From the NCBI RefSeq assembly GCF_000332335.1, contig NZ_KB235948.1, positions 3,882,548-3,918,619 of the forward strand: a stretch of DNA of 36,072 nucleotides, in the 5' to 3' direction. The notes under the pieces were generated by a model, which was given only the letters and a program-made list of their open reading frames with translations, had not been told where the DNA came from and ran no database searches. This document shows positions 16,713-34,008 of this stretch, one piece after another. The first letter of the stretch is position 1; every line of letters begins with the position of its first letter. The stretch is from Kamptonema formosum PCC 10802 (lineage in GTDB: Bacteria; Cyanobacteriota; Cyanobacteriia; Cyanobacteriales; Oscillatoriaceae). Made by a program: the position numbers and the translations under genes.

Positions 16713-16756
16713 ACCGGCACACCCGCCGGCCTGACCTCACCGGCACACCCGCCGGC
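16713..16756. repeat. Two 18-bp direct repeats just upstream of the -35 box
   Basis: ACCGGCACACCCGCCGGC occurs at 16713-16730 and again, identical, at 16739-16756, with a 26-base period. The second ends two bases before the -35 hexamer of the attenuator promoter. It could be a tandem operator; it could also be a local doubling of the GCCGGC-rich sequence common in this genome. Confidence 0.7.
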
Positions 16757-16758
16757 TC

Positions 16759-16787
16759 TTGACAGCGCCTGTTACCTTTGCTATAAT
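16759..16787 (+). promoter_or_regulatory. Consensus sigma-70 promoter for the leader-aroF transcript
   Basis: TTGACA (16759-16764), 17-base spacer, TATAAT (16782-16787): a perfect consensus in all three respects. Transcription would start near 16794, about 35 bases before the first leader peptide. A promoter this strong upstream of two terminators fits control by attenuation rather than by initiation. Confidence 0.88.
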
Positions 16788-16828
16788 AGAAGGAATTTGG
16801 CATACGTTTAAAGGCGAGCACGTCACAA

Positions 16829-16885
16829 ATGCCCACCAGCAGCAACTTTTTTTGGTATTGGTTTAGAGAGGTCCACCGCGAGTGA
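16829..16885 (+). CDS. Aromatic leader peptide 1 (18 residues, attenuator)
   Basis: ATG 16829 to TGA 16883-16885 encodes MPTSSNFFWYWFREVHRE, with six consecutive aromatic residues (Phe-Phe-Trp-Tyr-Trp-Phe, codons 16847-16864) covering all three aromatic amino acids. A weak Shine-Dalgarno (AAAGGCGAG) lies 10 to 16 bases upstream. It follows a consensus promoter and precedes a hairpin pair and a U-tract terminator, upstream of the gene for DAHP synthase. By analogy with the trp and phe leaders of proteobacteria, the peptide would measure charged aromatic tRNAs by ribosome stalling. The peptide itself probably has no other function. A second leader with its own terminator follows. Confidence 0.85.
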   Translation: MPTSSNFFWYWFREVHRE

Positions 16886-16917
16886 ATCCAATTTTCTATT
16901 GGATCTCTAGGTGGACC
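16870..16917 (+). promoter_or_regulatory. Antiterminator hairpin 1
   Basis: GGTCCACC (16870-16877) pairs with GGTGGACC (16910-16917). Inside it GAG/CTC (16880-16882 with 16905-16907) and ATCCAAT/ATTGGAT (16886-16892 with 16898-16904) extend the stem to about 18 bp in total. Its right arm uses GACC (16914-16917), the first four bases of terminator 1, so the two cannot form together. The left arm lies inside the leader frame, between the aromatic codons and the stop codon. A ribosome at the stop covers it; one stalled on the aromatic codons leaves it mostly free. Confidence 0.78.
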
Positions 16918-16947
16918 GCAGACTCAACCCTGCGGTCTTTTGTTTTT
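16914..16947 (+). terminator. Attenuator terminator 1
   Basis: GACCGCAG (16914-16921) pairs perfectly with CTGCGGTC (16930-16937), loop ACTCAACC, followed by TTTTGTTTTT. Classic intrinsic terminator placed 28 bases after the first leader's stop codon and before the second leader. Confidence 0.85.
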
Positions 16948-16977
16948 CTCTGGACAGCACAACTGAAGGACACCAGC

Positions 16978-17043
16978 GTGACAGCCCCCATTCAGAATTG
17001 GTTTTACGGTTTTTACTTTTGGCTCAGGCAGAGTTCTGGGTAG
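16978..17043 (+). CDS. Aromatic leader peptide 2 (21 residues, attenuator)
   Basis: GTG 16978 to TAG 17041-17043, preceded by GAAGGA seven bases upstream (a better ribosome binding site than that of leader 1). The peptide begins MTAPIQN, then has Trp-Phe-Tyr-Gly-Phe-Tyr-Phe-Trp (codons 16999-17022), seven aromatics out of eight, and ends LRQSSG. It shares no obvious sequence with leader 1 apart from the aromatic run and its distance to the following hairpins, so the pair may have arisen independently or diverged beyond recognition. It lies between terminator 1 and terminator 2, on the same transcript. Confidence 0.85.
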   Translation: MTAPIQNWFYGFYFWLRQSSG

Positions 17044-17081
17044 GGACCGTCATGTCGCTCGTCGCCTCAGCCCGGAACTCT
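17030..17081 (+). promoter_or_regulatory. Antiterminator pairing 2
   Basis: AGAGTTCTGGG (17030-17040), the end of the leader 2 frame just before its stop codon, pairs over 11 bases (one G-U) with CCCGGAACTCT (17071-17081). The right arm takes eight of the nine bases of the left arm of terminator 2. As in unit 1, the left arm would be covered by a ribosome that reaches the stop codon and exposed when one stalls on the aromatic codons. Confidence 0.75.
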
Positions 17082-17102
17082 CTCAGGTTCCGGGCTTTTT
17101 TT
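17069..17102 (+). terminator. Attenuator terminator 2
   Basis: AGCCCGGAAC (17069-17078) pairs with GTTCCGGGCT (17087-17096), loop TCTCTCAG, followed at once by seven T (17096-17102). It ends 43 bases before the DAHP synthase start codon. Confidence 0.9.
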
Positions 17103-17145
17103 GTTACCGCACACTTTTACTTTTGTAAGGATAAGGAGTAAACTC

Positions 17146-18000
17146 ATGTTCAGCGCTAAACTGGCAACCAAATCCCACACTGACCACCAAACTGTGATTA
17201 AACTGTCGGAACATGTTACTGTTGGGGGGGAAGACCTCCTGATTATTGGCGGACCGTGTTCTGTTGAGAGTTTGGAACAGATGGAGCAAGTCGCACGCCA
17301 CCTCGCCGAAGCGCCGGTTCAAGTATTGCGCGGCGGCGTCTACAAACCCCGCACCTCCCCCTACGCCTTCCAAGGTTTGGGAGTTGCGGGGTTAAAAATT
17401 TTGGATGCTGTGCGCCAGCGTTATGGGATGCCGGTGGTGACAGAGGTGATGTCTATTGGTCAAATTGAGGAGATTGTCGCCCATGCGGACATGCTGCAAA
17501 TTGGCAGCCGGAATATGCAAAATTTCGACTTGCTGAAAGCGGTGGGACACGCTGGGGTGCCGGTGATTCTCAAGCGGGGGCTGGCTGCTACTATTGAGGA
17601 GTTTGTTATGGCGGCGGAATATATCCTCAGTCACGGGAATCCGGATGTGATTCTTTGTGAGCGGGGGATTCGCAGTTTCGACAATTATACGCGGAATGTG
17701 CTGGATTTGGGGGCAGTGGTGGCGCTCAAACAGCTGACTCATTTGCCGGTGATTGCAGATCCCAGCCACGCCGCCGGCAAGCGGGAACTGGTGGCGGCTT
17801 TGGCGAGGGCTGCTGTTGCCGGTGGGGCGGATGGCGTGATGGTTGAGTGTCACCCGGAACCGGAAAAATCGGTTTCTGATGCCCGTCAGGCGCTTTCTTT
17901 GCCGGATATGGTGGATTTGGCTGACAGTTTGAAGCCGGTGGCTGCTGCTGTGGGGCGTCGCGTGCCGGCTGCTTTGAGCCGGTTGCTTCACGCGGCTTGA
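17146..18000 (+). CDS. aroF: 3-deoxy-7-phosphoheptulonate (DAHP) synthase, type I-beta, catalytic core only
   Basis: A 284-residue enzyme that joins phosphoenolpyruvate and erythrose 4-phosphate, the first step of the shikimate pathway. Family motifs: G36-P-C-S-V-E-S (metal-binding Cys38), 'LRGGVYKPRTSPYAFQG', 'IGSRNMQNFDLL', 'LKRG', 'CERGIR', 'DPSHAAGKR' and 'GADGVMVECHPEP'. Only about 28 residues precede the barrel core. Type I-beta enzymes with an N-terminal ferredoxin-like or chorismate-mutase extension use it for feedback inhibition, and that extension is absent here. The start ATG 17146 has AAGGAG seven bases upstream; the frame is open 15 codons further but that part overlaps terminator 2. 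The gene stands alone after a tandem attenuator, so its expression should follow aromatic tRNA charging, which would make up for lack of an allosteric domain (inference). Confidence 0.93.
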   Translation: MFSAKLATKSHTDHQTVIKLSEHVTVGGEDLLIIGGPCSVESLEQMEQVARHLAEAPVQVLRGGVYKPRTSPYAFQGLGVAGLKILDAVRQRYGMPVVTEVMSIGQIEEIVAHADMLQIGSRNMQNFDLLKAVGHAGVPVILKRGLAATIEEFVMAAEYILSHGNPDVILCERGIRSFDNYTRNVLDLGAVVALKQLTHLPVIADPSHAAGKRELVAALARAAVAGGADGVMVECHPEPEKSVSDARQALSLPDMVDLADSLKPVAAAVGRRVPAALSRLLHAA

Positions 18001-18058
18001 GGGATTGTTTTTAGGTAACTGATTCTCGTTCCGGGGCAGTCTCCGTGGGTGCCCATTA

Positions 18059-18250
18059 GTGTCAACTTAAGCTGTGTCCCGTAGTCTCTGGGCGGTTGAA
18101 ACCGCAGCTATACAGACAAAACCCGCAAGGCAAGGGTTTTAAGATTCTAGTTCTTCTCTTAAGTCCGCGTTGGGCGAAGCCCTTCCCGCAGGGTAGGCGG
18201 ACTTCGTTTGTATAGCCGCGATTTCAATCGCCGGGAGCTTAAGTTGACAC
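18059..18250. mobile_element. MITE-like element, 192 bp, perfect 15-bp terminal inverted repeats
   Basis: GTGTCAACTTAAGCT (18059-18073) is the exact reverse complement of AGCTTAAGTTGACAC (18236-18250). Each arm carries a version of a cyanobacterial intergenic motif, GGTTGAAACCGCAGCTATACA on the left and its inverted relative on the right, so the element folds into one long hairpin. The motif recurs at 35731-35760 without these ends. No coding capacity. No clear target-site duplication was seen. Confidence 0.75.
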
Positions 18251-19008
18251 CGATGGCACGGGAACCCGCCCCTACCGCCTGGGAATGCTTTTCAGGAGGC
18301 TCTGCCTCCTCAACCCCCCACAGGTGCCAACTCATATTATGTCGGCTTGCATAGGTTGGCATACCCTTGTAGGGGCGAGTTCAGCCAAGATATTTCTGGC
18401 ACAGAGCAGAATATAAATAAACCCGCCCCTACCCCCTCCGCACAACAGCGGTGCTGCCCGACATGATAAGCTGTTAGGCTTTTAATAGTTCTTAATGTGG
18501 GGTGGGGTGGGTTACGCTATCGCTAACCCACCCTACAGATTACTTGTCTGTCTGAAGGAGGCTCTGCCTCCAGGAGCTCGTTCCCAAGCAGAGCCTGGGA
18601 ACGAGGGGACCTCACCCTACATATAGAGGCGCAAGCTTAAGTTATTAATGGGGTTTGGGGTGGGTTACGCTATCGCTAACCCACCCTACAGATTACTCAT
18701 TTGATTCGCCGGCGCTCTCTCTCCAGGTGGGGGCGGGTTTACAAATATATTTCGTTGTGTGGCAAATCCCTTTGGCTTGCCCCGCCCCTACAAGTCACCG
18801 GCAGATATCCTCAATCAACCCGCCCTCACCGCCGACATTTCCTTCGCCACCGCCACAAAAGGATAAACCCTTCACGTTTGAGTGCCGGCACCCCACAACT
18901 GCCGGCCTTATATGCCGGCACCTTTTCCATTATTCTTAGTTTAACACAAATCCTGCCAATTGCAAAGGGGGAAAGGCAAAAATTTTTTCCTGTCCCAATC
19001 CCCTTCAG
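18251..19008. other. Repeat-rich intergenic region without genes
   Basis: The region holds several small inverted repeats: AGGAGGC/GCCTCCT (about 18293); GTAGGGGCGAGTT...AAACCCGCCCCTAC (18369-18432) and a second copy of that family (18727-18792); two copies of GGGTGGGTTA/TAACCCACCC with loop CGCTATCGC (18505-18533 and 18658-18686); and a CTCGTTCCCA...TGGGAACGAG hairpin (about 18580-18605). None of the short open frames looks like protein. Confidence 0.7.
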
Positions 19009-20176: not shown

Positions 20177-21928
20177 TCAGCCGATTCCCGAAGCCAAAAA
20201 CCACCCGATAGATGAACCCAGGATGAGAGCAGCAACTATCAGTAATTGCAAAATAGGTTTTTGCGATTTGAGCTGTGATAGCTCCTCTTGCAGTTCCTGA
20301 TTGCTTTTTTCCAGCTGAGATTGAACCCGCTCTCCCTCTTCTTTAACTTGTGTGAGCTGCTCTAAAGTGGAGGTTAGTTGGTTTTGCAGTTGCTGGCGCT
20401 CTCCCTGCACCGAGCTGAGCTGAGATTGGGTATCCCCAAGCTGAGACTCCAGTTGCGCCACCGTCTGATTCGCTGTTTCTAACTCAGATTGCAGCTGATC
20501 GCGCTCTCCCTGCACCGAGCTGAGCTGAGATTGGGTATCCCCAAGCTGAGACTCCAGTTGCGCCACCGTCTGATTCGCTGTTTCCAACTCAGATTGCAGC
20601 TGATCGCGCTCTCCCTGCACCGAGCTGAGCTGAGATTGGGTATCCCCAAGCTGAGACTCCAGTTGCGCCACCGTCTGATTCGCTGTTTCTAACTCAGATT
20701 GCAGCTGATCGCGCTCTCCCTGCACCGAGCTGAGCTGAGACTCCAGTTGCGCCACCGTCTGATTCGCTGTTTCTAACTCAGATTGCAGCTGATCGCGCTC
20801 TCCCTGCACCGAGCTGAGCTGAGATTGGGTATCCCCAAGCTGAGACTCCAGTTGCGCCACAGTCTGATTCGCTGTTTCCAACTCAGATTGCAGCTGATCG
20901 CGCTCTCCCTGCACCGAGCTGAGCTGAGATTGGGTATCCCCAAGCTGAGACTCCAGTTGCGCCACCGTCTGATTCGCTGTTTCTAACTCAGATTGCAGCT
21001 GATCGCGCTCTCCCTGCACCGAGCTGAGCTGAGATTGGGTATCCCCAAGCTGAGACTCCAGTTGCGCCACAGTCTGATTCGCTGTTTCCAACTCAGATTG
21101 CAGCTGATCGCGCTCTCCCTGCACCGAGCTGAGCTGAGATTGGGTATCCCCAAGCTGAGACTCCAGTTGCGCCACAGTCTGATTCGCTGTTTCTAACTCA
21201 GATTGCAGCTGATCGCGCTCTCCCTGCACCGAGCTGAGCTGAGATTGGGTATCCCCAAGCTGAGACTCCAGTTGCGCCACCGTCTGATTCGCTGTTTCTA
21301 ACTCAGATTGCAGCTGATCGCGCTCTCCCTGCACCGAGCTGAGCTGAGATTGGGTATCCCCAAGCTGAGACTCCAGTTGCGCCACCGTCTGATTCGCTGT
21401 TTCTAACTCAGATTGCAGCTGATCGCGCTCTCCCTGCACCGAGCTGAGCTGAGATTGGGTATCCCCAAGCTGAGACTGCAGTTGCGCCACCGTCTGATTC
21501 GCTGTTTCCAACTCAGATTGCAGCTGATCGCGCTCTCCCTGCACCGAGCTGAGCTGAGATTGGGTATCCGACAGTTGCTGCGATCGATCTGCTAGCTGTA
21601 ACTCAACATTCTGTAGCGCCGAACTCACTCGATCGAGTTGGGATTGCAGCTCTGCCTTTTGCTGCTCAGTGCGATCTAGCTGAGACTGCAGCTGCTCATT
21701 GTGATGGTGAGCTTGACCTAATAGAGTTTGAACCTCAGACAGCTGGGACTGTAGCTGTGAGTTTTCCTCACGAACTTGCTCTAATTCTGTTTGAATTTCT
21801 GTCAGTTGGGACTGGAGTTGTGAGTGTTCCTCCTCAATTTTCTTGAATAGTTCCAGCAGTTCTGATCCATGTCCTTCCTGCTTAGATGACGCAGCGGAAT
21901 CGTCTGACTTTTTGCTTTTACTTGCCAT
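20177..21928 (-). CDS. Tail-anchored coiled-coil protein with eleven 35-residue repeats
   Basis: A 583-residue protein. Residues 1-20 are polar, about 25-135 form a coiled coil rich in Q-L-Q-S-Q-L, followed by eleven near-identical repeats containing SVQGERDQLQSELETANQTV, then a degenerate unit and a C-terminal membrane helix ('LLIVAALILGSSIGWFLASG') at about 560-583. The repeat is 35 residues, exactly five heptads. One unit is short by seven residues, exactly one heptad, so the coiled-coil register is kept. The protein should form a long cytosolic rod (repeat part about 55 nm if one continuous coil) anchored by its C terminus. ATG 21928 has only a weak upstream GAG. No family recognised; a structural or tethering role is inferred. 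Confidence 0.85.
   Translation of the reverse strand: MASKSKKSDDSAASSKQEGHGSELLELFKKIEEEHSQLQSQLTEIQTELEQVREENSQLQSQLSEVQTLLGQAHHHNEQLQSQLDRTEQQKAELQSQLDRVSSALQNVELQLADRSQQLSDTQSQLSSVQGERDQLQSELETANQTVAQLQSQLGDTQSQLSSVQGERDQLQSELETANQTVAQLESQLGDTQSQLSSVQGERDQLQSELETANQTVAQLESQLGDTQSQLSSVQGERDQLQSELETANQTVAQLESQLGDTQSQLSSVQGERDQLQSELETANQTVAQLESQLGDTQSQLSSVQGERDQLQSELETANQTVAQLESQLGDTQSQLSSVQGERDQLQSELETANQTVAQLESQLGDTQSQLSSVQGERDQLQSELETANQTVAQLESQLSSVQGERDQLQSELETANQTVAQLESQLGDTQSQLSSVQGERDQLQSELETANQTVAQLESQLGDTQSQLSSVQGERDQLQSELETANQTVAQLESQLGDTQSQLSSVQGERQQLQNQLTSTLEQLTQVKEEGERVQSQLEKSNQELQEELSQLKSQKPILQLLIVAALILGSSIGWFLASGIG
20403..21568 (-). repeat. 105-bp tandem repeat array inside the coiled-coil gene
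   Basis: Eleven copies of a 105-bp unit (marker TGATCGCGCTCTCCCTGCAC near 20493, 20598, 20703, 20787, 20892 and onward). The step from the third to the fourth is 84 bp. Units are almost identical, differing at a few fixed sites (TCTAAC/TCCAAC, CCACCG/CCACAG), which points to recent unequal exchange or slippage. Copy number may vary between strains and could be mis-assembled. Confidence 0.85.
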
Positions 21929-25019: not shown

Positions 25020-25599
25020 ATGACTAAACTGCTGCTAGCCCTTGATTTTGGAGGCACGAAACACGCCGCTGCTGTGGTAGCTCCAGGAGAGCGCAACTTC
25101 CAAGACTGTCGCCGCGCCCTCTCGCCTGCGGGTGCGGATGCCGGCACTGACCGGAAAATTATGCGCTCACTGGCGCGGGAGGTGCTCGGAGGAGAGGAAC
25201 CGCTGGCCATTGGCGTCAGTTTTGGGGGGCCGGTGGATGCCACCACCGGCACGGTGCGACTGTCCGATCGCGTCTTGGGCTGGGAAAATACCCCCCTGCG
25301 GCAGATGCGGGAAGAGGAATTCGGGGTGCCGGTGAGTGTGGGCAAAAGAGGTGATCGAAAGGGCCGGTTGGGCCCTCGGAGTCGGGATTGGCAACGCCGC
25401 CAGCGGGATAAATCCCCAGGGTTTTGTTCTGGGCGGCGGCGTCACCAAAGCCGGTGAGCCCTTCTTGGCCGTCGCGCGGCGTGTGGCGCGACAAACCGCT
25501 TTGCCTGAAGTTGAGTTTGATATTGTCTGTGCTGCACTCGGCGACCTGGCACCATTTTGGGGTGCCGTGGCGCTAGCAGAAGATTTACTGGACTGTTAA
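25020..25599 (+). pseudogene. ROK-family sugar kinase, internally deleted and frameshifted
   Basis: The first 108 codons from ATG 25020 are a ROK kinase N terminus ('LLLALDFGGTK' phosphate-binding motif, then 'LAIGVSFGGPVDATTGTVRL'). At about 25343 it jumps to the family's C-terminal part, 'KEVIERAGWALGVGIGNAAS', then 'FVLGGGVTKAG' and 'FWGAVALAEDLL', in another frame, ending at TAA 25597-25599. About 130 residues normally between them, with the catalytic Asp and the zinc-binding Cys motif, are missing. The protein cannot be an active kinase. The breakpoint has no repeat that I can see. Confidence 0.85.
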
Positions 25600-32321: not shown

Positions 32322-32831
32322 ATGGCTTACGTTCCATTACGGAAATCGGTCGAATTTTTTGGGCTGCACCCCACAACTCTCAGGAAGTTTGCAGATGAAG
32401 GAAAAATCAAAAGCATCCGCACGCTATCGGGGCAGCGCCTCAAAGACATCGGGGGGATGGGAGGGGATTCAGCTGCAACTGCCACTGTTTGCTACTGCCG
32501 GGCCAGCTCAGCAAAACAGAGAGACGACCTCGCCCGTCAAGTTGAGTTCACGTTCGAGCGCTACCCCTGAGCCGAAATCATCCAAGACATCGGCTCAGGA
32601 CTTAACTTCAGGTGAAAAGGGCTGCGCGCCTTACTGGTCAGACTTATGCGCGGCGATAAGCTCACAGTTGTGGTTGCCAGCCGTGACAGGCTCTGCCGGT
32701 TTGGATTCGAGCTGTTTGACTTCATGGCGCAGCAAAACGGTGGGCAGCTCTTGGTTCTCAGCCAACCTACTTACTCCCGGGAATCCGAACTCACAGCGGC
32801 TCTTCTCGCCATCCTCCATGTCTACCGCTGA
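32322..32831 (+). pseudogene. tnpA: IS607-family serine recombinase TnpA with two in-frame stops
   Basis: From ATG 32322 the product starts MAYVPLRKSVEFFGLHPTTL (MerR-like HTH) and has a serine recombinase domain ('VCYCRASSAKQRDDLARQVE', nucleophile Ser kept; 'EIIQDIGSGLNF'; 'KLTVVVASRDRLCRFGFELF'). The frame is interrupted by TGA at 32568-32570 and TGA at 32613-32615 (the second in place of Arg, probably CGA to TGA). It ends at TGA 32829-32831, overlapping tnpB by 14 bases. The recombinase cannot be made in full unless stops are read through. Divergent from the other tnpA relic at 10197. Confidence 0.85.
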
Positions 32832-34008
32832 TCGGAAGCAAGCTATAGCTGCCGCACGCACGGGCGATTGCGATACCGCAAGGAAATCTCGGAAGATCCG
32901 GATATTCCCAAGCTCTAGCCAGAGAGCGCTTTTGAGGCAGTGGTTTGGCGTATCCAGGTACACTTACAACCAAGCTCTCAAACACCTCCTAGAGCCTGGC
33001 ACAAAAGCGAATTGGATGGACGTCGCTCCTGTTATCATGGGAGCTATGCCTGAATGGGCAAAGCCAGTCCCCTACCAAATCAAGAAAATCGCTGTCAAAG
33101 ACGCCTGCATTGCGGTCAGGGAAGCCAAGCGCGGCTTTGCAAAAGACGGCCAGTTCCGCAACTGTAAGTTTCGCAGCCGCAGGGACAGCAGGCAGACGAT
33201 CTTTGTCCCAAAGTCCGCAATCAGCCAGCGCGGCATCTATCACACGCTCCTGGGAGAGATGCGCTTTGATGAGCCTATCCCGCCAGACTTCAGCGATGGC
33301 CGCCTAACGATGGCCTATGGGGAGTATTACCTGGTAATCTCCCAAGAAGTGCAGCCGCGCCAGCCCGAAAACCAAGGGCGGGTGGTTGCCTTAGATCCCG
33401 GTGTCCGAACATTTATGACCTTTTTCTCTGAATCGTCTTGTGGCTGGATTGGCAGTGATGCAAACCTGCGAATTCAGAAGCTCTGTTTTAAGCTCGACCG
33501 CCTCGTGTCAAAAATCAGCAAAGCGAAGTCGAGCCAAAAGCGGCGCTTCAGGAAAGCAGCAGACCGCATCCGGTGCAAAGTGCAGCACTTAGTCAAAGAG
33601 CTGCACCACAAGACGGCCAAGTTCCTCGTTGATAATTTTGACGTAATTCTCCTGCCCAGTTTTGAATCGTCCCAGATGGTGAGCAAGTCCCGGCGCAAAA
33701 TCAAGTCCAAGACTGTGCGCCAGATGCTGACGCTATCTCACTACACATTTAAGAAGCACCTGGAGTGGAAAGCTTGGGAGGCGGGGAAAATTCTCCTGCC
33801 TGACATCAATGAAGCGTACACCTACAAGACTGTCTCTTGGACTGGGGAAGTTATCAAAATCGGCGGGGCGAGAGTCATTAAGTCCAAAATCGACGGGCGG
33901 GTCATGGACAGGGATCTGAATGGTGCTCGCGGGATTTTCCTGCGGGCATTGGTTGATACGCCTTGGCTGAGAGCTAGCCTCCCAGCTTATGTATTTGTTA
34001 CCAATTGA
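32818..34008 (+). CDS. tnpB: TnpB (IS607-type RNA-guided nuclease), zinc finger absent
   Basis: 396 residues from ATG 32818, inside the end of tnpA. N-terminal part 'FGVSRYTYNQALKHLLEPGT' and 'YQIKKIAVKDACIAVREAKR' are TnpB wedge/REC signatures. The RuvC-like nuclease residues are present: Asp193 ('VALDPGVRTF'), Glu283 ('LPSFESSQM') and Asp366 ('VMDRDLNGARGIF'). Between Glu and the last Asp, where most TnpBs carry a four-Cys zinc ribbon, the sequence is 'EAYTYKTVSWTGEVIKIGG' with no Cys. TnpB is the ancestor of Cas12 and uses a right-end RNA (omega RNA) to cut target DNA; that RNA should lie across the 3' end, near 33900-34090. The frame is intact although tnpA is dead. Overlap with tnpA is usual for IS607. 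Confidence 0.9.
   Translation: MSTADRKQAIAAARTGDCDTARKSRKIRIFPSSSQRALLRQWFGVSRYTYNQALKHLLEPGTKANWMDVAPVIMGAMPEWAKPVPYQIKKIAVKDACIAVREAKRGFAKDGQFRNCKFRSRRDSRQTIFVPKSAISQRGIYHTLLGEMRFDEPIPPDFSDGRLTMAYGEYYLVISQEVQPRQPENQGRVVALDPGVRTFMTFFSESSCGWIGSDANLRIQKLCFKLDRLVSKISKAKSSQKRRFRKAADRIRCKVQHLVKELHHKTAKFLVDNFDVILLPSFESSQMVSKSRRKIKSKTVRQMLTLSHYTFKKHLEWKAWEAGKILLPDINEAYTYKTVSWTGEVIKIGGARVIKSKIDGRVMDRDLNGARGIFLRALVDTPWLRASLPAYVFVTN

Follow-up and report, generated by a model that had tools for sequence, protein, structure and literature searches.

We analysed a 36,072-nt stretch of the genome of the cyanobacterium Kamptonema formosum PCC 10802 (hereafter the window), in which a gene for 3-deoxy-D-arabino-heptulosonate 7-phosphate (DAHP) synthase is preceded by two short open reading frames (ORFs) rich in codons for aromatic amino acids. 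On the plus strand, a consensus promoter is followed in order by leader 1, terminator 1, leader 2, terminator 2 and the DAHP synthase gene (Table 1), and each leader together with the terminator behind it is referred to here as unit 1 or unit 2. An initial annotation of the window had described the promoter, the two aromatic leaders with their own terminators and the gene, and all of them were found in the places it had assigned. It did not list the antiterminators, which start in the last codons of the leaders and compete with both terminators. By anatomy, a single leader RNA thus carries two complete attenuators.

Table 1. Features of the leader region and the gene behind it.
Feature	Position	Strand	Details
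Promoter, sigma-70-type, TTGACA-N17-TATAAT with extended -10 (TG)	16759..16787	+	12/12 consensus match
Promoter boxes	TTGACA 16759-16764; TATAAT 16782-16787	+	17 nt spacer, TG ahead of -10
Leader 1 ORF, MPTSSNFFWYWFREVHRE	ATG 16829 to TGA 16885	+	18 aa, FFWYWF; control codons 16847-16864
Antiterminator 1, GGTCCACC (leader 1 end) x GGTGGACC	16870..16917 (arms 16870-16877, 16910-16917)	+	fold and covariation
Hairpin inside antiterminator 1, ATCCAAT / ATTGGAT	16886-16892 / 16898-16904	+	
Terminator 1, intrinsic (predicted)	stem 16913-16938, T run to 16947	+	sequence, covariation
Shine-Dalgarno-like AAGGA of leader 2	16966..16970	+	sequence
Helix P0 of unit 2, leader 2 start region x post-stop segment	16974..17058 (arms ~16974-16983, ~17049-17058)	+	arm-swap test
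Leader 2 ORF, MTAPIQNWFYGFYFWLRQSSG	GTG 16978 to TAG 17043	+	21 aa, WFYGFYFW; control codons 16999-17022
Antiterminator 2, AGTTCTGGG (leader 2 end) x CCCGGAACT	17032..17079 (arms 17032-17040, 17071-17079)	+	covariation
Terminator 2, intrinsic (predicted)	stem 17069-17096, T run to 17102	+	sequence, covariation
DAHP synthase, type I-beta catalytic core without N-terminal ferredoxin-like (FXD) domain	ATG 17146 to 18000	+	regulated gene
Twin 16-nt repeat CCGGCACACCCGCCGG	16714-16729 and 16740-16755	not assigned	directly upstream of -35 box

The real sequence between 16759 and 17145 contains two short ORFs with at least six Phe, Trp or Tyr residues in eight. When this stretch was shuffled 2000 times with dinucleotide composition preserved, 21 shuffles gave at least one such ORF and none gave two; with the threshold lowered to at least five in eight, one or more ORFs appeared in 176 shuffles and two in 5. 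We therefore rejected the possibility that the leaders are chance ORFs, as no shuffle of 2000 gave two at six in eight.

The protein encoded behind the leaders was identified as a DAHP synthase by its matches to NCBIfam NF006421 (E 2e-119), TIGR01361 (E 5e-107) and Pfam PF00793. It consists of the catalytic domain alone; the ferredoxin-like domain of Thermotoga type (PF18152) was not found in it, and a paralog in the same genome (L002) carries this domain at residues 1-67. The closest solved structures are the short forms 1vs1 and 1zco for the window protein and the Thermotoga-type 1rzm for the paralog. In the Thermotoga enzyme the ferredoxin-like domain carries feedback inhibition, and short archaeal forms exist without it. 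Because the window enzyme lacks the domain that carries this inhibition, we suggest that control of this DAHP synthase may have shifted from the enzyme to the RNA.

Leaders and their codons among relatives

Loci for comparison were picked through the gene and not through the leaders, in three sets that share some genomes. The near-relative set comprised 60 genomes, including that of K. formosum itself, with 19 orthologous loci at ≥70% identity; the named-genome set consisted of the best 80 of 313 relatives, of which four were excluded for short upstream sequence (47, 91, 102 and 394 nt); and the class survey found an ortholog at E 1e-100 or better in 51 of 155 genomes. The initial annotation had named the DAHP synthase genes of related cyanobacteria as the place where such leaders should recur, and both leaders were indeed present at 15/19, 75/76 usable and 47/51 loci, respectively. 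A stricter automatic test, which also required a terminator score and a C-terminal pattern, was passed by both units at 14/19, 69/80 and 38/51 loci, and the rows that failed it were assessed from their ORFs and sequences to give the counts above.

Among the near relatives, leader 2 stands alone at three loci (L015, L019 and L020) and leader 1 at one (L018); L013 was scored as having both leaders although its leader 1 stops right behind the aromatic run. The named-genome set, whose closest member among the best 80 of 313 is Oscillatoria princeps RMCB-10 (enzyme 96%), includes 74 loci with both leaders at ≥5 aromatic residues in eight, one locus (L117) with four in eight in leader 1, and a single exception with leader 2 alone (L098). 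Both leaders reach five in eight at 44 of the 47 class-survey loci, and L171, L173 and L174 combine leader 2 with a weaker leader 1, which is visible in the L171 sequence and is accompanied by matches of the unit 1 covariance model described below in all three genomes. Leader 1 alone was found at L197-L200, which belong to one family. In a quickly built tree of 78 DAHP synthases (72 orthologs, with six FXD-type paralogs as outgroup), the rows with a single unit sit nested among those with two. This placement is compatible with an ancestor that had the tandem and with loss of one unit on four occasions, a reading weakened by the 30 of 75 inner branches with support below 80.

The promoter recurs as well: a promoter-like site scoring ≥8.5 lies ≤130 nt upstream of leader 1 at 65/70 non-redundant loci, compared with 161/1400 shuffles of those stretches. 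In the 40 rows viewed, it is mostly of the kind TTGAC, 17 or 18 nt, then TGnTAnnnT, and a perfect TATAAT like that in the window is uncommon among them. The twin repeat directly upstream of the window's -35 box is possibly an operator; the 8.59-Mb genome contains no exact copies of it beyond the two at this site, and it is only loosely retained in the near relative L062 and was not seen in eight further relative rows compared.

Within the leaders, start and stop codons are retained, Tyr codons alternate between TAT and TAC and Gly codons among GGC, GGT and GGA, and Trp, Tyr and Phe replace one another. The fraction of aromatic residues is 0.34 and 0.36 in the reading frame of the two leaders and 0.10-0.22 in the other frames. 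Judged from these sequence patterns, the leader frames look coding: short, rich in aromatic codons and conserved in frame. Drifting frames and lost aromatic codons would have spoken against the initial annotation; instead, frames and codons persist across the class, where substitutions include synonymous ones and aromatic swaps. Its further claim that the two leaders sense all three aromatic amino acids holds for each leader separately, since Phe, Tyr and Trp all occur in 68/70 leader 1 and 58/60 leader 2 peptides (non-redundant). Phe is written mainly as TTT in the leaders (389/447 codons) and mostly as TTC in the downstream genes (TTT 147/541), in rows that are related and gene sets that overlap; in the 16 main ORFs of the window TTT accounts for 157/256 Phe codons. 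This bias may adjust how sensitive decoding is, or prevent structure in the run.

The aromatic core itself is very similar between species (GFYFW, YFYFW), and leader 2 includes a non-aromatic residue, Gly or Ser, as might be expected if the leader peptide acted in the ribosomal exit tunnel, binding a free aromatic amino acid or arresting the ribosome. Several observations make such nascent-peptide sensing improbable. The codon table is conditioned on the core motif (45/60 leader 2 rows and 37/70 leader 1 rows), and at core positions free of row selection, Trp, Tyr and Phe interchange: 37 W, 5 Y, 2 F and 1 E at one position, 35 Y and 10 F at another. The peptide C-termini VHRE and SSG are located in RNA pairing arms and vary along with them, so that their conservation can be ascribed to the pairing, and natural early stops lie just past the core in L003 and L013. 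TnaC arrests the ribosome with Trp, and in control of this type a catabolic operon is expressed more strongly when the free amino acid is abundant; this direction of response would be wrong for a biosynthetic gene.

Leader 1 of L013 and leader 2 of L003 and L062 end at natural stops just past the aromatic run and ahead of the antiterminator arm, and such early stops make it possible to judge, from natural variants, what portion of the leader end needs translating. At L071, positions 1-394 hold the leader 2 core; the leader 2 start and the whole of unit 1 are missing at the contig end, and the break adjoins an apparent palindromic element.

Competing folds and the gene they precede

Both units can form an antiterminator that excludes the terminator, by base pairing between the last part of the leader frame and the terminator's 5' arm. 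The end of leader 1 reads GGTCCACC in the window and GGTTCACC, GTTCGCC and others in relatives; its pairing partner GGTGGACC shares bases with the 5' arm of terminator 1. In unit 2, AGTTCTGGG is matched by CCCGGAACT, itself the 5' arm of terminator 2. The window segment 16865-16920 folds at -26.4 kcal/mol. To examine covariation, we aligned chosen rows, 61/70 of the non-redundant unit 1 rows (nine divergent rows were excluded by hand) and 59/60 of unit 2 (L157, with a long frame, was excluded); all 70 unit 1 and 60 unit 2 rows entered the arm-swap, P0, equilibrium, footprint and long-helix tests.

Antiterminator 1 is paired in 88.3% of cells across its 61 sequences and shows changes on both sides in 7/13 pairs, with 49 double-changed cells compared with 14.6 in shuffles. 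The corresponding values for antiterminator 2 (59 sequences) are 90.5% and 24 double-changed cells vs 6.4. Both predicted terminators, which lie between their leader and the gene, are similarly retained: terminator 1 is paired in 96.9% of cells (18 double-changed vs 3.4 in shuffles) and terminator 2 in 96.6% (32 vs 6.6), and further pair types are weakly above shuffles in both (79 and 87 of 500). When the partner was slid by 1-3 columns, pairing fell to 13.5-61%. A helix of ≥7 pairs from the leader end into the terminator arm can form in 69/70 unit 1 and 57/60 unit 2 rows (non-redundant), and own arms pair better on average than foreign ones (-24.6 vs -21.1 kcal/mol in unit 1, -16.8 vs -15.5 kcal/mol in unit 2). 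By eye, the clade of L242 and L244 has swapped its unit 2 arms for a different, still matching set. Each unit thus contains mutually exclusive folds backed by covariation, and together with the conserved frames these lend strong support to the initial interpretation of the region as attenuators.

Unit 2 contains an additional helix, P0, between the leader 2 start region and a segment behind its stop codon, with a duplex energy of -15.3 kcal/mol in the window. Across 60 sequences, the mean duplex energy of own arms was -12.3, the best mean of 300 between-species permutations was -10.4, and 0/300 permutations equalled the own arms. The same permutation test applied to unit 1 did not find a start-region helix (64/300 permutations were as good). 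P0 crosses antiterminator 2, and because the helices cross, the two would hardly form together. In our reading, P0 would act as a latch that hides the leader 2 start codon.

We then asked where else in the genomes the two units occur, using covariance models that were built from many of the loci later matched. The unit 1 model matched a single place in each of 50/145 class genomes, K. formosum included, and never a second; given how the model was built, what this search tells us is the absence of a second place in any genome. Forty-six matches lie just upstream of class-survey orthologs, two (G447 and G487) precede orthologs cut by a contig end, one (G501) lies at a contig end such that the gene would be off the contig, and in one (G084, locus L231) a retained leader 1 precedes what is left of a decayed DAHP synthase gene (53% identity over 77 aa). 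G446, which has degenerate leaders, gave no match to the unit 1 model. The unit 2 model likewise matched a single place in each of 49/148 genomes of the order. Nine of these, mainly the weakest, were inspected; seven lie at DAHP synthase and two elsewhere, the latter (G183, E 3e-4; G567, E 5e-4) being the weakest two, which look like chance. As each strong match inspected is at DAHP synthase, we rejected the idea that the element serves other genes.

Searches directed at other genes gave a concordant picture. No aromatic leader was found upstream of trpE-like or prephenate dehydratase genes at 44 loci from K. formosum and 13 relatives (44 of 57 matches had a scannable locus, some being cut by contig ends); two hits were obtained, neither of them aromatic-rich. 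Nor was a leader found upstream of the FXD-type paralog at 12 loci, within ≤700 nt upstream of the match. A degenerate leader pattern matched in 79/386 genomes; 19 of the 44 loci viewed had a DAHP synthase match (a fragment in L052), and the other 25 were not leader-like by eye.

This restriction also bears on whether the small frames are working micro-proteins, with terminators that merely separate transcripts. The ORFs are small and conserved and have plausible start sites, all of which such a function would share; both frames, however, precede this one gene wherever inspected, the conserved residues are those of the aromatic codons and the pairing arms, and the antiterminators would have no purpose. 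We regard a micro-protein function as very improbable.

Ribosome position and a proposed mechanism

The influence of translation on the choice of fold was examined with a footprint model in which the RNA extends up to the terminator loop and the ribosome covers positions -17 to +12 around the A site. In the window, antiterminator 1 keeps 5.7 to 5.0 pairs as long as the A site is at F7 to Y10, falls to 2.8 at W11 and 0.8 at F12, and has none from R13 onwards. Antiterminator 2 retains 9.9 pairs at W8-Y13 (codons 8-13), 4.4 at F14 and 0.2 at W15, and past W15 the P0 helix forms in the model. Comparing a stall on the first aromatic codons with a ribosome at the stop codon, 65/70 unit 1 and 58/60 unit 2 rows gain more than two antiterminator pairs. 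With no ribosome, antiterminator 2 has 5.1 pairs compared with 8.1 when stalled, as it yields partly to P0.

The antiterminator arm lies inside the ORF, separated from the aromatic run by a footprint's distance. This placement speaks against sensors of another kind (a riboswitch, a T-box or a site for an RNA-binding protein) in which the small frames would be incidental. The strong, conserved alternative folds and the long leader RNA would be compatible with such a sensor; however, no Rfam family, T-box and riboswitch families included, matched in the window at gathering score, the aromatic fraction peaks in the reading frame, and start and stop codons are kept. We give this explanation very little weight.

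We consider it highly likely (a probability of about 0.9) that the region comprises two ribosome-mediated transcription attenuators in series, which would control a single DAHP synthase gene and both respond to the same three charged tRNAs. What the sequences show is the frames with their codons, the two pairs of alternative folds, and the conservation of these elements; from them we infer the following course of translation, stalling and termination. Polymerase would start at the promoter and a ribosome on leader 1. With Phe-, Tyr- and Trp-tRNA amply charged, this ribosome would reach the stop codon and cover the last leader codons, so that the antiterminator would be blocked, terminator 1 would fold and transcription would end. 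When one of these tRNAs is poorly charged, the ribosome would stall in the aromatic run, the exposed leader end would capture the terminator's 5' arm, and polymerase would read on. Leader 2 would repeat the decision, and the gene would be transcribed only if both units were passed, with the read-through fractions multiplying. P0 could form once the ribosome is beyond the aromatic codons and, in some species, in the absence of any ribosome; it would compete with antiterminator 2 and keep a second ribosome from reaching the start codon.

Several results weigh against this mechanism. With the full terminator at equilibrium, ribosome position matters less: the mean terminator probability for a stalled ribosome and one at the stop codon is 0.63 vs 0.94 in unit 1 and 0.74 vs 0.95 in unit 2, a rise of >0.2 occurs in just 45/70 unit 1 and 19/60 unit 2 rows, and terminator 2 of the window stays at 0.92-0.96 at every ribosome position. 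The model therefore depends on an antiterminator that would form before the terminator and persist while polymerase passes, as is usual for attenuators. Antiterminator 1 also forms when no ribosome is present (6.1 pairs vs 5.8 when stalled; equilibrium terminator probability 0.54), so that without translation unit 1 would be prone to read-through. In antiterminator 2, the number of pairs with double changes (4) was matched by 125/500 shuffles and the number of further pair types (12) by 416/500. A clear antiterminator is absent from unit 1 of L099 and unit 2 of L016, L143 and L170. A row's own arm is best or tied in merely 5/70 (unit 1) and 6/60 (unit 2) cases, because the arms are much alike between species. 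Finally, one-unit lineages exist, requiring four changes on the tree, and leader 1 of L013 and leader 2 of L003 and L062 end early.

The initial annotation had further proposed a steep AND-type response, which goes beyond the evidence. As each leader holds codons for Phe, Tyr and Trp, a shortage of any one of them should act, and since both units read the same signal, what multiplies would be the read-through of the two units. Whether the region is an old cyanobacterial attenuation cascade at one gene, giving multiplied, switch-like control of an enzyme that lacks an allosteric domain, with P0 as a single-use latch, we regard as an even question. To our knowledge, no leader-peptide attenuator has a single-use latch that hides its own start codon.

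The presence of attenuator anatomy across the class makes the coupling of transcription and translation in cyanobacteria directly testable at one gene; if the proposed mechanism is true, cyanobacterial translation trails polymerase closely enough to steer it. With both units reading the same signal, the series also lets one ask, in a natural setting, if a steep switch can be built from two weak ones. The arrangement may matter for aromatic products in cyanobacteria, as an enzyme without a regulatory domain appears to stand behind an RNA lock.

The remainder of the window holds several unrelated features. Behind the DAHP synthase gene, at 18053-18256, lies an element of ~200 nt that resembles a miniature inverted-repeat transposable element, with 21-nt terminal inverted repeats (90% complementary). 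A coiled-coil protein with near-identical tandem repeats of 105 nt (35 aa; 98% alike) and some 84-nt units is encoded on the minus strand at 20177-21928. The ORF at 25020-25457 ends after 145 aa, has no Pfam match at 1e-5 and is possibly a frameshifted copy; its start resembles that of a ROK-family sugar kinase. At 32359-34008 an IS605 OrfB-like transposase has HTH_OrfB_IS605 and Cas12f1-like TNB domains and a long N-terminal part before the first domain.

Relation to known attenuators

Leader-peptide attenuation is a textbook mechanism, and the trp and pheA leaders of enterobacteria are its familiar examples. Like them, the region described here combines a short ORF containing codons for the end product, overlapping antiterminator and terminator, and a biosynthetic gene. 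Unlike them, it has two complete units in series with all three aromatic amino acids in each, the 5' arm of the antiterminator is the end of the leader frame, the gene encodes DAHP synthase and the host is a cyanobacterium. By anatomy, we assign the region to the ribosome-mediated attenuators, the new aspects being the conserved tandem, the single signal and a phylum in which we found no earlier case.

General descriptions of attenuation are given in portions of PMC9413887 and PMC8079986. In the open-access PMC literature, at the level of titles and the beginnings of abstracts (subscription papers and preprints fall outside this scope), we found no description of a leader-peptide attenuator in a cyanobacterium. 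This agrees with one part of the novelty claimed by the initial annotation and with a 2016 statement, in a section of PMC4833913, that there were no reliable data on leader-peptide attenuation in cyanobacteria. A passage of PMC2965389 (2010) gives Proteobacteria and Actinobacteria alone as phyla with known attenuation until its own report from Firmicutes, and the word stem cyanobacteri is absent from the main texts of PMC2965389 and PMC11109978.

Leader peptides of aromatic metabolism outside Proteobacteria are represented by the Streptomyces lividans trpE and trpS leaders, which, as outlined in part of PMC8079986, differ from the present case in being single units that respond to Trp alone, in Actinobacteria. 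The same enzyme's gene is involved in uORFC-13-1, a candidate upstream ORF with a Phe codon and a terminator ahead of aroF in Acholeplasma; according to sections of PMC8632094, it has 24 representatives in Acholeplasma and unknown environmental organisms, and a U run gives at least one Phe codon. That account, in those sections, mentions neither a tandem nor Tyr or Trp codons, unlike the leaders described here.

The tandem arrangement, the other part of the claimed novelty, does have a precedent. The leader RNA of Salmonella mgtCBR likewise contains two short ORFs and is under attenuation-like control, and in the passages of PMC3641672 that treat it, the mgtP ORF senses the charging of a tRNA and the tandem reads two different signals. 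In the cyanobacterial leader RNA, by contrast with what these passages describe, the codons in both units are for the same amino acids, and every unit comes with an intrinsic terminator of its own.

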